From: Actinomycetota bacterium | GTDB taxonomy: Bacteria; Actinomycetota; Acidimicrobiia; Acidimicrobiales; CADCSY01 | Assembly (NCBI GenBank): GCA_004366205.1 | Contig: SIRW01000058.1 | Coordinates: 1-47,583, forward strand | Reading direction: 5' to 3' | Length of the DNA: 47,583 nucleotides | Shown here: piece after piece, positions 3,572 through 12,175 of the stretch | How positions within the stretch are numbered: the first letter of the stretch is position 1 | How the letters are laid out: every line of letters begins with the position of its first letter | Position numbers and translations under genes: made by a program | The notes under the pieces: model-generated | What the model was told of the DNA's origin: nothing | Database searches by the model: none | The model's input: only the letters and a program-made list of their open reading frames with translations

Positions 3572-3590
3572 GCGAGGGCCGCCTGGCGGG

Positions 3591-3619
3591 TTGCCATTCG
3601 AGCCGGCATCGCGCATACT
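3591..3619 (+). promoter_or_regulatory. Promoter of the first mgtE leader
   Basis: TTGCCA (3591-3596) and CATACT (3614-3619) are separated by exactly 17 nt. The same pair with the same spacing occurs upstream of the second mgtE gene (11323-11351, minus strand), which supports its being functional. Confidence 0.65.
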
Positions 3620-3637
3620 CTGCGACGGACAACGTGA

Positions 3638-3806
3638 CCTGGGACCCGTTAGGTGAGGCTCCTGGGGGATCGACAGGTTCGCTGCCCGGAAACGTCGAGA
3701 GACGCCAACGGGTCAACTGGCACGGCCGAATCAAGGCCCTGCCTAATGCGAGCGGGAGCTCCGGTTCCTAGTGCCCCCAGTGCTGAAGCTCAACGTGGGG
3801 GACCGA
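3638..3806 (+). ncRNA. M-box (ykoK) magnesium riboswitch
   Basis: The stretch carries the consensus blocks of the M-box aptamer in order: CGTTAGGTGAGGCTCC (from 3647), GCTGCCCGGAAACGTCGAGA (from 3681), GACGCCAACGGGTCAAC, AAGGC, GCCTAATGC and finally GAAGCTCAACG (3784-3794), which closes the outer P1 helix with the first block. M-box RNAs bind several Mg2+ ions and turn off Mg2+ transporter expression when the ion is plentiful. A magnesium-channel gene lies directly downstream, and a terminator-like hairpin follows the aptamer. Limits are approximate. Confidence 0.93.
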
Positions 3807-3848
3807 GCCCTGAGACCGGCAGCCAGCCTGCCGGGAGCAGCGGTGTGC

Positions 3849-3878
3849 GGCCTCCCGCGGGAGGCCGTTTGTGGTTTT
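3849..3878 (+). terminator. Terminator-like hairpin of the M-box expression platform
   Basis: GGCCTCCC (3849-3856) and GGGAGGCC (3859-3866) form a perfect 8-bp stem with a 2-nt gap (effectively a 4-nt loop), followed by the U-rich GTTTGTGGTTTT. Its place between the aptamer and mgtE fits conditional termination. Confidence 0.6.
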
Positions 3879-3926
3879 CCGGGCCGGTGTCCGGACCAGG
3901 CGCCGTTCTGAGAGGAGGTGAGAGCC

Positions 3927-4025
3927 CTGCACGCAGACCAACCCCCGCCTGCCCGGGGGTCTGAGCCCCAACGACATCGCAACGACGCTCTCCCTCGCCG
4001 AGCCGCGCCGGTACCGGTGCGCTGA
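3927..4025 (+). CDS. Possible proline-containing leader peptide of mgtE
   Basis: A strong SD, AGGAGG (3913-3918), lies 8 nt before CTG 3927, opening a 32-codon ORF that ends with TGA 4023-4025 and begins L-H-A-D-Q-P-P-P-A-R. GTG 3918 is in frame but overlaps the SD. The weak start codon makes this uncertain. In its favour, the second mgtE leader has an ATG-started short ORF in the corresponding place, also behind AGGAGG and also with a D, Q, P-P segment. In enterobacteria, proline- and acid-rich MgtL peptides sense low Mg2+ or proline by ribosome stalling or destabilisation; a similar role here is inference. Confidence 0.4.
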   Translation: MHADQPPPARGSEPQRHRNDALPRRAAPVPVR

Positions 4026-4038
4026 CGCGCGCGGTCGC

Positions 4039-4069
4039 GGGAGAGCCCGAACCCAAGGGAGGTTCTCCC
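4039..4069 (+). promoter_or_regulatory. Hairpin enclosing the mgtE ribosome-binding site
   Basis: GGGAGA (4039-4044) can pair with TCTCCC (4064-4069), enclosing the SD AAGGGAGG (4055-4062) just before ATG 4070. The second mgtE gene has an equivalent arrangement, suggesting translational control coupled to the upstream leader ORF. Confidence 0.5.
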
Positions 4070-5431
4070 ATGACCAAGTACCAGGCCACCATCAACCTGC
4101 AGGACATCAAGGCCGAGGTGGCGGCAACCAGCCCCGAGCAGCTCGCAGTCGAGCTGCCGCAGCGGCCGCCCTCCGAGCAAGCCATCTCGTTCCGGCTCCT
4201 GCCCAAGGACACCGCACTGTTCGTCTTCGAGCTGCTCACCGCCGAGCAGCAGCAGGCCCTGCTGGAGGCCATGAACGACAGCGAGGCCGTCTCGGTGCTC
4301 GAGCGCCTCGACGACGACGACCGGGCGCGGCTTCTCGACGAGCTCCCGGCGAAGGTCGCAAAGCGACTCCTGGCCCAGCTGTCGCCCGAGACCTGTGCCA
4401 GCGTCCAGGTGATGCTCGGCTACGAGCAGGGCACCGTCGGGCGCATCCTGTCCCCGGCCTACGTGGCCGTGCGCTGGTCGGCGACGGCCGGTGAGGCGCT
4501 CGAGGCCGTCCGGTCCTCGGCGTTGCGGCCGGAGCACCTGGGGACGGTGTTCGTCATCGAAGCTGACCGGCGCTACCGGGGCCTGGTTCGCCTGGCCGAT
4601 CTGGTTCGCACCGACCCGCAGCGGTCCGTGGCCGAGCTGGTAGAGGCGCGCGACGTGTTCGCTCGCGTCACCGATGACGCTGCTGCCGCCGCGCGGCTCC
4701 TGCAGCGCCGCGACCTCGACGCCTTGCCCGTCCTCGACAGCGAGGACCGCCTCGTCGGGGCGCTCACCGTCGATGACGCCATGGACGCGCTCGACGTCGA
4801 CACGACCGCCACCATGCTGGGCATGGCCGGTATCGCCGACCCCGGGCACAGCACCGAGATCCTGCGTAGCGAGCGGCTGATCTACGGCTCGATCCTGTAC
4901 CCGGTGCGGGTCCGGATCCTCTTCCTGATGGTCACCCTTGCTGGCGGGTTGCTCGTCGGCGGGTTGATCGAGCAGTTCGAGGACACCCTGGCGGCCGTGG
5001 TCGCGCTGGCCGTGTTCATCCCGCTGGTGATGGACATGGGCGGCAACGTCGGCACCCAGTCGACCACGATCTTCGCCCGGGGCCTCGCGCTCGGACACAT
5101 CGACCTGAGCCGGATCCGCAGCCACATCTGGCGGGAGATGAAGGTCGGGCTCACCATGGGCTCGATCCTCGGCCTCCTCGGCGGCACCGTGGCGTGGCTG
5201 TGGCAGGGCATTCCCAACGGCGTGCCCGAGCTCGGGCTTGCGGTCGGTCTCGCCCTGTTCACGTCGGTGAACCTGGCGTGCTTCCTCGGCTTCGCGCTGC
5301 CGTACACGCTGCTGCGGCTCGGGCTCGATCACGCACCGGGTGCCGACCCGTTCATCACGACGATCAAGGACTTCACCGGCCTGCTCGTGTACTTCGGTTT
5401 GGCTGCCTGGGTTCTCGGGATCGCGAGCTGA
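4070..5431 (+). CDS. mgtE: MgtE-type magnesium channel/transporter
   Basis: A 453-residue protein with the full MgtE layout: a superhelical N domain (about 20-125, including AISFRLLPKDTALFVFELL and a DELPAKVAKRLL repeat), two CBS domains (about 128-250, ending in LPVLDSEDRLVGALTVDDAMD), a connecting helix, and five membrane segments from about residue 280. The pore signature MGGNVGTQST lies near 322-331. MgtE proteins form homodimeric Mg2+ channels closed by Mg2+ binding to the N and CBS domains. ATG 4070 follows a strong SD. The M-box upstream makes Mg2+ control nearly certain, and mgtC follows after 30 bp. The paralogue at 9664-10989 has a different N-terminus. Confidence 0.95.
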   Translation: MTKYQATINLQDIKAEVAATSPEQLAVELPQRPPSEQAISFRLLPKDTALFVFELLTAEQQQALLEAMNDSEAVSVLERLDDDDRARLLDELPAKVAKRLLAQLSPETCASVQVMLGYEQGTVGRILSPAYVAVRWSATAGEALEAVRSSALRPEHLGTVFVIEADRRYRGLVRLADLVRTDPQRSVAELVEARDVFARVTDDAAAAARLLQRRDLDALPVLDSEDRLVGALTVDDAMDALDVDTTATMLGMAGIADPGHSTEILRSERLIYGSILYPVRVRILFLMVTLAGGLLVGGLIEQFEDTLAAVVALAVFIPLVMDMGGNVGTQSTTIFARGLALGHIDLSRIRSHIWREMKVGLTMGSILGLLGGTVAWLWQGIPNGVPELGLAVGLALFTSVNLACFLGFALPYTLLRLGLDHAPGADPFITTIKDFTGLLVYFGLAAWVLGIAS

Positions 5432-5461: not shown

Positions 5462-6208
5462 GTGACGACTGAGCTCGAGTTCCTGATCCGGCTGGGTGCA
5501 GGCTTCGTCGCTGGCGCCCTCATCGGGCTGGAACGCCAGTGGCGGCAGCGCGGCGCCGGGTTGCGCACCAACGCCCTCGTCGCCACCGGCGCCACCCTGT
5601 TCGTCCTGCTGTCGGAGTCCTTCGCTGACGACGAGGTGAGCCCCACCCGGGTCGCTGCCCAGGTGGTGTCCGGGGTGGGCTTCCTCGGTGCTGGGGTCAT
5701 CTTGCGGGACGGGCTCAACGTGCGGGGCATCAACACCGCCGCAACCCTGTGGTGCGCGGCGGCAGTGGGCTGCCTCGCGGGGGCGGGCCTGTACTGGCTC
5801 GCGCTGGCGGGATCCGGCGCCGTCGTGGTCGCCAACGTGATCCTGCGGCCCGTAGCCCGCCGCCTCGACCGCCGGCCGCTGGATGAGGACGACGAGGTGA
5901 TGAGCACCTACCGGTTCCGCGCAGTGTGTCGGCACGCCAGCGAGGCCCACGTCCGGGCGCTCATGCTGCAGGCCCTGGGCGGGTTTCGGCTGCGGTCGCT
6001 GCACTCGGTCGACCTCGACGAGGACCGCGTCGCCGTCGACGCCGAGCTCGTGGTCGAGGGCCGCGACGACGCTCGCCTCGAGCAGGCCGTGAGCCGGATC
6101 AGCCTCGAACCTGCCGTCACCGCTGTGCGCTGGGAGGTTGCGGACCAGAACGGGTCGTCGGAGTGGGAGGGTATGCGCGTCGGACCCGAGCGGGAGTCCG
6201 AGCGGTGA
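5462..6208 (+). CDS. mgtC: MgtC/SapB family membrane protein
   Basis: A 248-residue protein. The N-terminal half has the MgtC domain, with LGAGFVAGALIGLERQWR, GLRTNALVATGATLFVLLS, GVGFLGAGVILRDGLNVRGINTAATLW and further membrane helices. The soluble C-terminal part (from about 145) has an ACT-like beta-alpha pattern (FRAVCRHASEAHVRALML onward). MgtC proteins help bacteria grow in low Mg2+, not as transporters but probably by modulating ATP synthase or other membrane partners. GTG 5462 follows AAAGGAGG at normal spacing. Position 30 bp after mgtE places it under the M-box, and its end overlaps the next gene (GTGA). Confidence 0.92.
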   Translation: MTTELEFLIRLGAGFVAGALIGLERQWRQRGAGLRTNALVATGATLFVLLSESFADDEVSPTRVAAQVVSGVGFLGAGVILRDGLNVRGINTAATLWCAAAVGCLAGAGLYWLALAGSGAVVVANVILRPVARRLDRRPLDEDDEVMSTYRFRAVCRHASEAHVRALMLQALGGFRLRSLHSVDLDEDRVAVDAELVVEGRDDARLEQAVSRISLEPAVTAVRWEVADQNGSSEWEGMRVGPERESER

Positions 6209-6989: not shown

Positions 6990-8498
6990 CTACCCGGGCG
7001 CGGGCGCTCGCGTGCCTCCGCCCTCCTGCGCGAGCTCGTCGAGGAACGTGCGGGCCCCGATGACGGTCGCCCCCCGGGATCGGCACCGCCGGGCGAGCTC
7101 GCGGTCCGACGTGACGACCTCGAGCGGGCCGTCGAGCTCGTCGAGCAGCTCGACGATGCGGTCGTCGGCCGCGTCGCGCCCGCGGCGGCGGGCGTACCGA
7201 ACCTCGATCCCCCCGTTGGTGCCCTCGCCCAGCCCGGGATGGGGCCGGTCGAGCACCAGCAGGACGCGCTGGGGCCGACCCCGGGCGTAGGCCTGCAGGT
7301 CGCCGGCGAGCCGCCCGGCGGCGGCGGCCGGATCGCGCCACCAGCCATCGGCCCGGGCGCCCATCACGTTGTTGCCGTCCACGACCAGCCAGCCGGAGGG
7401 CCGGGCGGCGCGCCGCGCCCGGTGCAGCTCGCGCCCGGCGACCACCACGAGCGTGACCGCGACGAGGGGGAGGACGAAGCCCAGCATCGCCAGGCGCAGC
7501 TCGTCGAGCCCGGCATGGCGCACGGCAGCGAGCACCACGTAGGTCGTGTACGCCAGGTACAGGCCGACGAACAGGCCTCCTTCCCAGCGCTCGATGGCGT
7601 AGCCGGTGAAGAACACCGGCAGGCAGGCGACGGCTACCGCCAGCATCACCGGCAGGTCGAGGCGCAGGGCGGCGTCGGCGACGGCGACCCCGCCGGGCGA
7701 GACGAGGGCGGCGCCGCCCAGCACGGCCGTGAGGTTGAACAGGTTCGACCCGACCACGTTGCCGACCGCGATGTCGCGCTGGCCCCGCACCGCGGCCAGC
7801 ACCGACGTGGCCAGCTCGGGCAACGACGTCCCCACCGCCACGATCGTCACCCCGATGACGAGCTCGGACACGCCCGCGACCTCGGCCAGGGTGACGGCCC
7901 CGTCGACGAGCCAGCGGGCGCCGAGCGCGAGCGCGCCCAGGCCGGCAGCGACGAGCCCGAGGTCCGCCCACCAGCGCCGGGCGCTACCCGGTGGCGCCTC
8001 GCCGACGGCGGCGGCGTACTCGGCGCGCACGTCGGCCTGCTCGCGCCGGCTGACGGCGACGCCCCAGGCCGTGTAGGCGACGATCCCGGCGACGAGGACC
8101 CCGCCCTCGACGCGGCCGACCGCCCCGTCGAGCGCGAGCAGCAGCACCAGCGCGCTCACGCCGATCACGAGCGGGACGTCGAAGCGGACGAGCTTCTGGT
8201 GCACGACGAGGCCGCCGACGAGCGCGCTCACCCCCAGGATCCCCAGCGTGTTGAACACGTTGCTGCCGACGACGTTCCCGAGCGCCAGCGCCGCCCGGCC
8301 GTCGAGCGCCCCGCCGACCGACACGACGAGCTCGGGCGCGCTGGTCCCGAACGCCACGACGGTGAGGCCGATGACGAGGGGCGACACGCCGAGCGCGAGG
8401 GCGAGCCGGGAGGCGCCGCGGACCAAGAGCTCGGCGCCGGCGACCAGCAGCGCCAGACCGGCGAGCAGCAGGACGATGTCGACGGCGTCCAAGCGCAC
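6990..8498 (-). CDS. Ca2+/cation antiporter fused to a C-terminal NYN nuclease-like domain
   Basis: A 502-residue protein. Residues 1 to about 350 are a CaCA-family sodium/calcium-type exchanger with two inverted alpha repeats: GTSAPELVVSVGGAL with GNVVGSNVFNTLG, and GTSLPELATSVLAAV with GNVVGSNLFNLTA. Residues 370 to about 490 form a NYN (YacP-like) domain: WLVVDGNNVMG, VLLVLDRPHPG, ADDRIVELLDEL and VVTSDRELARR, with candidate metal-binding Asp374, Asp445/446 and Asp465. NYN domains are predicted metal-dependent RNases. The junction is one uninterrupted frame with no stop or good internal start. GTG 8498 is given; TATGAT at 8501-8506 lies 8 nt before the in-frame TTG 8492, which may be the true leaderless start. 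Confidence 0.88.
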   Translation of the reverse strand: MRLDAVDIVLLLAGLALLVAGAELLVRGASRLALALGVSPLVIGLTVVAFGTSAPELVVSVGGALDGRAALALGNVVGSNVFNTLGILGVSALVGGLVVHQKLVRFDVPLVIGVSALVLLLALDGAVGRVEGGVLVAGIVAYTAWGVAVSRREQADVRAEYAAAVGEAPPGSARRWWADLGLVAAGLGALALGARWLVDGAVTLAEVAGVSELVIGVTIVAVGTSLPELATSVLAAVRGQRDIAVGNVVGSNLFNLTAVLGGAALVSPGGVAVADAALRLDLPVMLAVAVACLPVFFTGYAIERWEGGLFVGLYLAYTTYVVLAAVRHAGLDELRLAMLGFVLPLVAVTLVVVAGRELHRARRAARPSGWLVVDGNNVMGARADGWWRDPAAAAGRLAGDLQAYARGRPQRVLLVLDRPHPGLGEGTNGGIEVRYARRRGRDAADDRIVELLDELDGPLEVVTSDRELARRCRSRGATVIGARTFLDELAQEGGGTRAPAPG

Positions 8499-9663: not shown

Positions 9664-10989
9664 TCAGAGGTCGAGCACGGCTCCCGCGATCAGGAAGTAG
9701 ATGATCAGGCCCGTGGCATCGACCAGGGTGGTGATGAGCGGCGCTGACACGACTGCGGGGTCGATCCCGACCCGCTTGGCGAGCATGGGCAGCATCGAGC
9801 CGGCGAACGTCGCCCACGTGCAGATCGTGACCAGCGTGAGCGACACGATCATGGCGATCTCGCGGTCGAAGAAGAACGTCACGGGCACGAACATCACCGC
9901 CGCGAGCATCAGGCCCATCAGCACGCCGACCCGGGCCTCGCGCCACAGCACCCGGGGCAGGTCCCGGAAGCGCAGCTCGCCGACCGCCATGGCCCGGATG
10001 ATCACGGTGGAGGCCTGCGAACCGGAGTTGCCCCCGGTGTCGATCAGCAGCGGGATGAACAGCGCCAGGGTGACGACGTCTTCGAGCGTGTCCTCGAAGT
10101 ACTGCAGCACGTTGACGGTGAGGGCGGCGGCCACGATGAGGATGAGCAGCCACACCGCCCGGCTGCGGGCCAGACCCAGCACCGACACGGCGAGGTAGGG
10201 CCGGCCGAGGGGCTGGGTGGCGCCGTGGAGGGCGAGGTCCTCGGTCTCCTCGGCCTCGATGACCTCCATGGCGTCGTCGACGGTGATGACGCCGACGAGC
10301 CGCTCCTCGCTGTCGAGCACCGGGAGGGCGAGGATGTCGGCCTCCTGCATGAGCCGGGCCGCCACCTCCCGGTCGTCGTCGACGTGGACGTGGTGCACGT
10401 CGGTTTCCATGAGGTCGCGGACCAGGGTGCCCGGAGGGCTGAGCACGAGCTGGCGCAGCGACACGATGCCCCGCAGGCGGCGCTGGTCGTCGGTGACCGG
10501 CAGGGTGTAGATCGTCTCGGCGGTGGCGCCGGCGCGCCGCACCTTGGCGAGCGCGTCGGCCACCGTCATGTTCTCCCGCAGGTTCACGTACTCCGGGCTC
10601 ATGACCCGCCCGGCGGACTCCTCGGGGTAGCCGAGGAGCGCGGCGGTCATGGCCCGCTCCTCGTCGCTCAAGCCCGCGAGGACGCGCGTCGCCACCTTGG
10701 CGGGCAGCTCGCCGACGAGCCGGGCGCGGTCGTCGGGGTCCATGTCCTCGACGAGCTGGCGGAACCGCTCGTCCCGCAGGCCCTCGAGCACCTCGTGCTG
10801 GTGGACGGGGTCGAGCGCCTCGAACACGGCGAGCGCCCGGTCACGGGGGAGCAGCCGGAACGGGATGGCCTTCTCGGCGGGGTCGAGCCGGGCGAGCTCC
10901 TCGGCGATGTCGAGCGTCCCGGTCTCCTCCAGCCACGCCTCGAGCGCAGCCAGGTCGGGGCTGCTCGTGAGGTTGCTGAGATCGGTCAT
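9664..10989 (-). CDS. mgtE: Second MgtE-type magnesium channel/transporter
   Basis: A 441-residue paralogue of the gene at 4070. It has an N domain (about 15-120, AIPFRLLPRDRALAVFEAL and VGELPAKVATRVLAGL), two CBS domains (about 125-245, ending LPVLDSEERLVGVITVDDAMEV) and a membrane domain with TGGNSGSQAST (near 316-326) and a C-terminal pair of helices. Motifs match the first copy, but overall sequence has diverged, especially in the membrane domain, so the duplication is old or came by transfer. ATG 10989 follows AGGAGG at 9 nt. The leader resembles that of mgtE1 but carries a damaged M-box, so regulation probably differs. Confidence 0.95.
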   Translation of the reverse strand: MTDLSNLTSSPDLAALEAWLEETGTLDIAEELARLDPAEKAIPFRLLPRDRALAVFEALDPVHQHEVLEGLRDERFRQLVEDMDPDDRARLVGELPAKVATRVLAGLSDEERAMTAALLGYPEESAGRVMSPEYVNLRENMTVADALAKVRRAGATAETIYTLPVTDDQRRLRGIVSLRQLVLSPPGTLVRDLMETDVHHVHVDDDREVAARLMQEADILALPVLDSEERLVGVITVDDAMEVIEAEETEDLALHGATQPLGRPYLAVSVLGLARSRAVWLLILIVAAALTVNVLQYFEDTLEDVVTLALFIPLLIDTGGNSGSQASTVIIRAMAVGELRFRDLPRVLWREARVGVLMGLMLAAVMFVPVTFFFDREIAMIVSLTLVTICTWATFAGSMLPMLAKRVGIDPAVVSAPLITTLVDATGLIIYFLIAGAVLDL

Positions 10990-10992
10990 GGG

Positions 10993-11019
10993 GGGGAACC
11001 TCCTCCGGTGAGGCTCCCC
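10993..11019 (-). promoter_or_regulatory. Hairpin enclosing the second mgtE ribosome-binding site
   Basis: On the minus strand GGGGA can pair with TCCCC, enclosing the SD AGGAGG (10999-11004) upstream of ATG 10989; an inner CCTC/GAGG pairing is also possible. It parallels the 4039-4069 hairpin. Confidence 0.45.
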
Positions 11020-11029
11020 GCCCGACAGA

Positions 11030-11119
11030 TCAGCCCGGGAGTCGGGCGACCGCGGTCGCGGGGAGCCGGTGCGCAACGGTTCGGACGTGTGGGGGTTGCT
11101 TCGGTCTGTCGCCGCCCAT
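11030..11119 (-). CDS. Leader peptide upstream of the second mgtE
   Basis: A 29-residue ORF from ATG 11119 with an ideal SD (AGGAGG at 11127-11132, spacing 7). It begins M-G-G-D-R-P-K-Q-P-P-H and ends R-L-P-G, with five prolines. It stops 40 bp before mgtE2, just ahead of the hairpin that can hide the mgtE2 SD. The first mgtE leader has a short ORF in the same place with a similar D..PP segment. The quality of the SD argues that it is translated. A regulatory role through ribosome stalling or dissociation, as for MgtL, is inference. Confidence 0.55.
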   Translation of the reverse strand: MGGDRPKQPPHVRTVAHRLPATAVARLPG

Positions 11120-11178
11120 CGGCTCACCTCCTCGCTCGGTCGTCTGGGGTTCGGCGCCCCGACCGGAGAGCCACGAAC

Positions 11179-11197
11179 GGCCTCCCCGCAGGAGGCC
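11179..11197 (-). other. Degenerate terminator hairpin in the second mgtE leader
   Basis: GGCCTCC and GGAGGCC form a 7-bp stem, the counterpart of the hairpin at 3849. The following tract reads GTTCGTGGCTCTCC instead of GTTTGTGGTTTTCC, so the U-run needed for intrinsic termination is broken. Confidence 0.5.
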
Positions 11198-11227
11198 GTC
11201 GCCGCGCACGCTGCCCGTGCTCGAGGA

Positions 11228-11306
11228 TCGGTCCCCTACGTCGAGCTTCAACATCCGGGCAGCGAACCTGTCGATCCCCCAGGAGCCTCACCGAACGGGT
11301 CCCAGG
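11228..11306 (-). ncRNA. M-box riboswitch remnant with a 90-nt core deletion
   Basis: Read on the minus strand, the first 53 nt (11306-11254) match 3638-3690 of the intact M-box at 52 of 53 positions. The next 26 nt (11253-11228) match 3781-3806 at 23 of 26. The 90 nt between, which hold the AACGTCGAGAGACGCC, CAACGGGTCAAC, AAGGC and GCCTAATGC blocks, are missing. The P1 closing helix can still form, but most of the Mg2+-binding core is gone, so the RNA should not respond to Mg2+ in the usual way. Confidence 0.85.
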
Positions 11307-11322: not shown

Positions 11323-11351
11323 AGTATGCCCGCTGGCGGCGCGGCTGGCAA
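11323..11351 (-). promoter_or_regulatory. Promoter of the second mgtE leader
   Basis: On the minus strand TTGCCA (11351-11346), a 17-nt spacer and CATACT (11328-11323) reproduce the promoter of the first mgtE leader exactly in hexamers and spacing. Confidence 0.65.
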
Positions 11352-11369: not shown

Positions 11370-11738
11370 TCACGTGGCGGTGAGGACTGCGTACATCAGG
11401 CCCGCGGCGGCGGTGCTGAGCACGAGGTGGGCGGCGGCGTTGAGCGCCGCCGTGCGGCCGGCGTGCTGCTCGGCCAGCCGCACGGTCTCGACGGCGAACG
11501 TCGAGAACGTCGTGAAGGCGGCGAGGAAGCCGGCGCCGGCGACGACCCGCACGGTGTCGTCGAGCCCGTGCCGGGCGGCCAGGCCGGCCAGAGCGCCGGC
11601 GAGAGCGGAGCCGGCGGCGTTGACCAGGAGGGTCCCGCGCGGGAGCAGCCCACTTGCCCGGAGCGTGAGGGCGTGGTCGAGCACGAACCGGCTGGCGGCG
11701 CCCAGCGCGCCGGCGACGACGACGGCGAGCAGGGTCAT
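11370..11738 (-). CDS. crcB: Fluoride channel CrcB/Fluc, second of a tandem pair
   Basis: A 122-residue protein with four hydrophobic helices and the CrcB signature: GALGAASRFVLDHAL, GTLLVNAAGSALAGAL and FLAAFTTFSTFAVETVRL. The TTFSTF motif supplies the Phe/Ser-Thr residues lining the fluoride pore. Fluc channels are dual-topology dimers that export F- passively. Here two different crcB genes lie side by side, the arrangement that yields a heterodimer in several Gram-positive bacteria. The ATG overlaps the stop of the upstream crcB (ATGA), indicating coupled translation. Confidence 0.93.
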   Translation of the reverse strand: MTLLAVVVAGALGAASRFVLDHALTLRASGLLPRGTLLVNAAGSALAGALAGLAARHGLDDTVRVVAGAGFLAAFTTFSTFAVETVRLAEQHAGRTAALNAAAHLVLSTAAAGLMYAVLTAT

Positions 11739-12175
11739 GGTCGCCGCCGGTCGGGTGCCGGGGCCAGGCGCTGGGCGAGGCCGATGCCGCCGGCTGCGGC
11801 GGCGATGCCGAGAGCCATGGTGGCGGCCACGTACAGCGCGGCGGTGGTCGCGTGACCGCCGTCGACGAGGAGGACGACCTCGGTGGCGAAGGTCGAGAAG
11901 GTGGTGAACGACCCGAGCGCCCCGGTGGCGAGCAGCGGCCGCAGCCAGAGAGGCAGGTCGCGAACCACCAGCACCGTCAGGAGGAGCCCCAGCAGCGCGG
12001 CGCCCAGGACGTTCTCGACCAGCGTGACCGCCGGGAGCGCGTGCTCGTCCACGGGGAAGCGCTGGCCCAGGCCGTAGCGGGCCGCCGTGCCGGCCGCGCC
12101 ACCGAGCATCACCAGCCCGACCATCCACGCGGGCGGCAACCGTCGCCGGGGGCCTGATCGTGAGGGGGCGCTCAC
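11735..12175 (-). CDS. crcB: Fluoride channel CrcB/Fluc, first of a tandem pair
   Basis: A 146-residue protein. After a basic N-terminus come the CrcB helices with MLGGAAGTAARYGLGQRF, LVENVLGAALLGLLL and TGALGSFTTFSTFATEVVLL. The TTFSTF motif is intact. Start GTG 12175 is selected because a TAGCGT -10 box lies exactly 7 nt upstream, giving a leaderless mRNA. There is therefore no room for the fluoride riboswitch that often precedes crcB, and I see none. It probably forms a heterodimer with the overlapping downstream crcB product. Confidence 0.93.
   Translation of the reverse strand: MSAPSRSGPRRRLPPAWMVGLVMLGGAAGTAARYGLGQRFPVDEHALPAVTLVENVLGAALLGLLLTVLVVRDLPLWLRPLLATGALGSFTTFSTFATEVVLLVDGGHATTAALYVAATMALGIAAAAGGIGLAQRLAPAPDRRRP

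Follow-up and report, generated by a model that had tools for sequence, protein, structure and literature searches.

In the usual layout of the M-box riboswitch (ykoK leader, RF00380), which works as an “off” switch, locking of the aptamer allows a terminator to form. The known conservation of this family marks columns 52 to 140 of the RF00380 model as needed for Mg2+ binding. Genes for Mg2+ transporters may also be preceded by a leader peptide with an acidic and proline-containing start, as is the case for MgtL of mgtA. In Salmonella, the mgtQ ORF, which has acidic codons early in its sequence, releases the hidden ribosome-binding site of mgtB (PMC8092293). In Mycobacterium tuberculosis, the pe20 M-box controls uORF2 (Rv1805A), which is translated, carries a conserved proline at position 7, and has been termed mycobacteria-specific, with no role reported (PMC12810186). 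A search of the available literature for defective M-boxes found none.

The window analyzed here is a contig of 47,583 nucleotides from a draft assembly of 119 contigs and 3.44 Mb. It contains two mgtE genes, the products of which are about 40% identical. The leader of mgtE1 (453 amino acids; 4070 to 5431, + strand) holds a full M-box at 3638 to 3808 (+), which in the Rfam search spans the whole RF00380 model (columns 1 to 169) with a score of 112.7 bits, above the gathering cut-off of 44. It is preceded by a promoter-like TTGCCA-N17-CATACT found by the promoter scan (3591 to 3619, +). The 3′ strand of its outer helix, GGGGGACCG (3797 to 3805, +), is complementary at 8 of 9 positions to CGGCCUCCC, the 5′ arm of the terminator, and is, judging from the letters and the fold energies, a putative antiterminator strand. 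A terminator-like hairpin with its tail, recognized by the terminator scan and by its stability relative to shuffled sequences (z of −2.4), follows at 3847 to 3878 (+). Given that the next gene, directly 3′ of mgtE1, is of the MgtC/SapB family (5462 to 6208, +), the two genes probably form an mgtE1-mgtC operon under full M-box control. The pe20 M-box of M. tuberculosis likewise controls an operon whose last gene is mgtC.

The second gene, mgtE2, encodes an intact MgtE transporter of 441 amino acids (9664 to 10989, − strand), and its leader carries a paralogue of the mgtE1 M-box that is reduced to 81 nucleotides (11226 to 11306, −). The first-pass annotation of this DNA had described two leaders sharing promoter hexamers and spacing, a 53-nucleotide 5′ block with one mismatch, and a 26-nucleotide 3′ block with three, with exactly the 90 nucleotides at 3691 to 3780 (+) and most of the conserved elements missing from the second. 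All of this is borne out. The promoter-like TTGCCA-N17-CATACT recurs at 11323 to 11351 (−) with identical hexamers and spacing and is, in each leader, the sole promoter-like match of its region (shuffle mean, 0). The two arms retained by the short copy lie at 11254 to 11306 (5′ arm, −) and 11228 to 11253 (3′ arm, −). They meet at 11253/11254 (−), where the equivalent of 3691 to 3780 is absent from an alignment that is gap-free on the other side. The missing segment corresponds to columns 52 to 140 of RF00380, the core between the arms, and takes with it 33 of the 60 aptamer columns that are most strongly conserved.

Running the Rfam model on both regions, as had been proposed, gave the short copy 26.3 bits, which is below the gathering score. 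The corresponding E value of 0.0012, obtained in a search of 601 bases, indicates that its likeness to the M-box is not due to chance. The short copy resembles an mgtE-type M-box in its arms, in its position in the leader of a metal transporter gene, downstream of a promoter and before mgtE, and in the outer-helix 3′ strand GGGGACCG (11229 to 11236, −), which by its letters is complementary at 7 of 8 positions to the terminator 5′ arm and thus a putative antiterminator. It differs from the family in the absent core columns, in the sub-gathering score, and in the loss of the U-tract. The outer helix, which had been reported as kept, persists as complementary letters but is not the predicted fold: a structure of the mgtE2 leader that includes it has −63.2 kcal/mol, about 12 above the minimum free energy of −75.5 kcal/mol, and the M-box remnant alone folds no better than shuffled sequences (z of +0.63).

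The terminator-type stem of the mgtE2 leader, ACGGCCTCC/GGGGAGGCCGT (11177 to 11199, −), has a z of −4.0 over 11165 to 11206. Both this stem and the hairpin over the ribosome-binding site described below are more stable in the short leader than in the full copy. The tract 3′ of the stem (11178 to 11165) reads TTCGTGGCTCTCC and has CUCU where mgtE1 has UUUU. UUUU is also found in L038, an M-box leader from another genome that precedes an MgtE1 gene whose product is 65% identical to that of the window and that was used as the outgroup. Polarized in this way, the replacement of UUUU by CUCU falls on the lineage of the short copy alone. The terminator U-run is indeed broken, as the first reading of the letters had it, and since the short copy has CUCU for UUUU, the terminator scan matches the full copy alone. 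The UUCGUGG that comes right after the stem is shared with the intact L038 and does not count as a defect. When the terminator and antiterminator folds were enforced, their energies were −118.9 and −117.2 kcal/mol for the full copy (1.7 apart) and −115.2 and −115.0 kcal/mol for L038 (0.2 apart), near-equal values as expected of a switch, versus −75.5 and −68.2 kcal/mol for the short copy (7.3 apart).

The two leaders of the window are 86% identical over 3585 to 3690 and 70% identical over 3781 to 3922 (blastn). When L038 serves as the outgroup, the two window leaders are grouped together by 37 sites and each alternative pairing by 19, which shows that the cassette was copied or converted within this lineage. 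A cassette of promoter, M-box, and terminator was thus passed between the two mgtE genes, with the core lost from one copy afterwards. The idea that the mgtE2 leader was freshly copied from that of mgtE1 was rejected, since 33% of flank positions are different between the two and the short copy retains outgroup states where mgtE1 changed. Within the 3′ arm, the short copy has the L038 state at all three differing sites. On the short lineage, 1 of 81 arm positions changed versus at least 18 of 147 in the flanks (P = 0.002), which would be explained either by a recent deletion or by arms that are still constrained.

M-boxes are rare in the class, where 5 of 395 genomes have one above the cut-off. 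The closest relatives of MgtE2 come from two Acidimicrobiia metagenome-assembled genomes (79 to 81% identical), in which mgtE2 has no M-box leader, and the mgtE2 relatives of Nitriliruptoraceae in L006 and L009 have full M-boxes. The two closest relatives, one of which has its locus in common with a genome assigned to that class, make Acidimicrobiia the most likely class of the genome analyzed here. Other M-boxes of the class (L035, L036, and L037, at about 1500 to 2100) precede an NRAMP-like transporter gene, also with a uORF, and have on their upstream side a gene with MgtE_N/CBS-like sequence. Besides the window, a gapped pattern for the short form matched five places in 296 genomes of the class, and Rfam recognized no M-box in any of them at E values up to 0.1. 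The one most like the short form, L090, is part of a formate dehydrogenase-like gene. A blastn search with the leader in 298 genomes of the order yielded, outside its own genome, just short GC-rich matches. In G020, a weak M-box hit of 24.8 bits was discarded, as it falls within a lysine- and alanine-rich coding repeat.

Beyond what had been noticed originally, the deletion spared a second module, made of a small upstream ORF (uORF) and a hairpin over the ribosome-binding site. The order is the same in both leaders: the terminator, then AGGAGGTGAG with its small ORF, and then a hairpin on the ribosome site of mgtE. In the mgtE2 leader, AGGAGGTGAG at 11123 to 11132 (−) is a perfect Shine-Dalgarno sequence for an ATG-initiated uORF of 29 amino acids (11030 to 11119, −; MGGDRPKQPPHVRTVAHRLPATAVARLPG*), and the hairpin over the mgtE2 Shine-Dalgarno sequence lies at 10990 to 11023 (−; z of −4.03). 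In the mgtE1 leader, AGGAGGTGAG is at 3913 to 3922 (+), the uORF is at 3927 to 4025 (+; (L)HADQPPPARGSEPQRHRNDALPRRAAPVPVR*), with a start at CTG, judging from the spacing, or at the in-frame GTG at 3918, and the hairpin over the Shine-Dalgarno sequence of mgtE1 is at 4039 to 4069 (+; z of −2.5).

This layout recurs in the M-box leaders of Mycobacteriaceae-like genomes, Acidimicrobiia, and Nitriliruptoraceae. The uORFs that follow M-boxes begin with MSSSDSP, MSPDDSP, MNDDQPPS, (L)HADQPPP, (L)SADCWLPDQP, or VPEDGERP, and that of the short leader begins with MGGDRPKQPP. Across 19 leaders with a uORF behind a Shine-Dalgarno sequence, proline plus aspartate or glutamate make up 33% of uORF residues 2 to 13, a share that falls to 19% and 16% when the two remaining frames are read (Wilcoxon P = 1.9 × 10−4), a figure to be taken as a lead and not as proof, because the start codons were picked by Shine-Dalgarno spacing and are CTG in 7 of the 19. 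Leaders of mgtE that have such a uORF without an M-box match are found in Millisia brevis (L013; VSADPVSPSPHRFAVSPD) and in L043 (beginning with VENPPQPQGAMRP). In L013 (4829 to 4885) and in L043 (about 130 nucleotides before mgtE), the acidic and proline-rich uORF sits behind a perfect Shine-Dalgarno sequence.

Compared by position and composition, given how short and divergent the peptides are, these uORFs resemble uORF2 of the M. tuberculosis pe20 leader. They stand behind a strong Shine-Dalgarno sequence about 90 to 120 nucleotides past the aptamer and have acidic and proline residues near the N terminus (MSSSDSP in L058 and L060). As for the conserved proline at position 7 of uORF2, the short copy has prolines at 6, 9, and 10, and mgtE1, numbered with the CTG as its first codon, has them at 6, 7, and 8. 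In contrast with the pe20 M-box, the gene here is mgtE, the full copy has an intrinsic-terminator-like hairpin, and the short copy has no aptamer core. The likeness to Salmonella mgtQ is one of layout, not of sequence, in that a short, early-acidic ORF is followed by a hairpin hiding the ribosome site of the transporter gene; the uORF of the short copy is, however, 29 amino acids long versus 8 for mgtQ, and the alternative pairing is weakly supported here. MgtL belongs to another phylum, gene, and RNA.

That pairing was looked for in both leaders. One able to free the ribosome site spans 10 bp in the short copy (matched by 15 of 1,000 shuffles) and 8 bp in mgtE1 (114 of 1,000 shuffles), both weak. 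Such an antisequestor pairing is confined to the two copies of the window and absent from four other leaders. Placing a ribosome at each uORF codon in an equilibrium fold left the ribosome sites of mgtE1 and mgtE2 closed.

Our preferred reading, held with slightly better than even confidence, is that an M-box leader cassette was duplicated and that the copy in front of mgtE2 is without its sensor, so that M-box control has been lost there, transcription is probably constitutive, and the translational module may still regulate. Without the core, the RNA would be unable to lock the outer helix on Mg2+, so that M-box control of premature termination would be gone. With a broken U-tract, RNA polymerase would mostly read through, and mgtE2 would thus be transcribed at any Mg2+ level. 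Less certainly, what control remains would fall to the translational module, which is intact. In this module, a leader peptide whose first codons specify acidic residues and proline would be translated just 5′ of the hairpin hiding the mgtE2 ribosome site, and ribosomes faltering on the uORF at low Mg2+ might alter access to this site, by analogy with Salmonella mgtQ. The conservation and predicted stability of the uORF and hairpin are consistent with mgtE2 possibly being under Mg2+ control of this kind. Against this reading stand the equilibrium ribosome model, which gave no effect, the weak support for the freeing pairing, and the need for a CTG start in several uORFs. Moreover, given arms that are free of drift, the deletion may not be old enough to reveal what selection makes of it, and the strong terminator stem might still stop or pause RNA polymerase.

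The first-pass annotation had suggested a decayed switch that makes mgtE2 constitutive. For M-box control this is supported, with the core absent and the U-tract hit. The decay goes no further: the terminator stem, the uORF and its perfect Shine-Dalgarno sequence, and the ribosome-site hairpin are intact, so “constitutive” may fit transcription but not translation. Plain decay would go further and leave a broken riboswitch and an unregulated mgtE2, with the uORF and hairpin as inherited baggage or chance. We regard this as possible but doubtful. It accounts for the lost core and the broken U-tract, and the closest mgtE2 orthologues manage without an M-box leader. It fits poorly, however, with a terminator stem and a ribosome-site hairpin that are more stable than those of the intact copy and far from shuffled sequences, with a uORF that retains a perfect Shine-Dalgarno sequence and has gained or kept an ATG, and with arms that have a single change in 81 positions.

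A leader locked off, in which the sensor-less outer-helix strand antiterminates too rarely to keep the strong stem from forming and mgtE2 from being largely silenced, seems improbable. The 7.3 kcal/mol by which the terminator fold of the short leader is favored over the antiterminator and the z of its stem would suit such a locked leader, but the U-tract required for intrinsic termination is gone, and mgtE2 has an intact, conserved coding region. It is very improbable that the organism has the 90 nucleotides and that they were dropped by the draft assembly or vary between strains. Although the short form comes from a single genome, and an exact match of about 40 nucleotides between the copies could mislead a short-read assembler, the sequence to the right of the junction differs from the other copy at 3 of 26 positions, no repeat spans the junction, and more changes specific to the short copy lie downstream. 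Least credible of all is the other original suggestion, a minimal RNA with new, Mg2+-responsive behavior, since, despite conserved arms whose four differences are all states seen in other M-boxes, the 81-nucleotide remnant is no more stable than shuffles and would form its outer helix only far above the minimum free energy, more than half of the most conserved columns are gone, and no relative with the short form appeared in the pattern (class) and blastn (order) searches.

Returning to the preferred reading of a cassette without its sensor, one genome with an intact and a core-less M-box leader that share promoter and uORF/hairpin layout makes the aptamer and the translational module separable. 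Comparison of the uORFs further suggests that the conserved peptide located downstream of the M-boxes in M. tuberculosis is one instance of a wider actinobacterial feature. That this feature occurs even where the M-box is absent speaks for a leader peptide that senses Mg2+ and against a small protein peculiar to mycobacteria. The fuller proposal, that Actinomycetota have a Mg2+-sensing leader peptide, both after M-boxes and alone before mgtE, which at mgtE2 is still in charge with the aptamer deleted, is offered tentatively and is in our estimate unlikely. If true, mgtE2 would be a natural experiment in which the two layers of control within a single leader are set apart.

Just 5′ of the short leader, and on its strand, lies the end of a pair of adjacent crcB-type (fluoride channel) genes (11370 to 12124, −); the window yielded no fluoride riboswitch. 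In L090, a SECIS-like match below the cut-off (821 to 879) lies where the formate dehydrogenase-like frame starts, and this frame is split by a stop at the match, which suggests a selenocysteine codon. Elsewhere in the window, a single open frame at 6993 to 8498 (−) that matches a Na/Ca exchanger and whose end matches a YacP-like NYN domain may represent a fusion.
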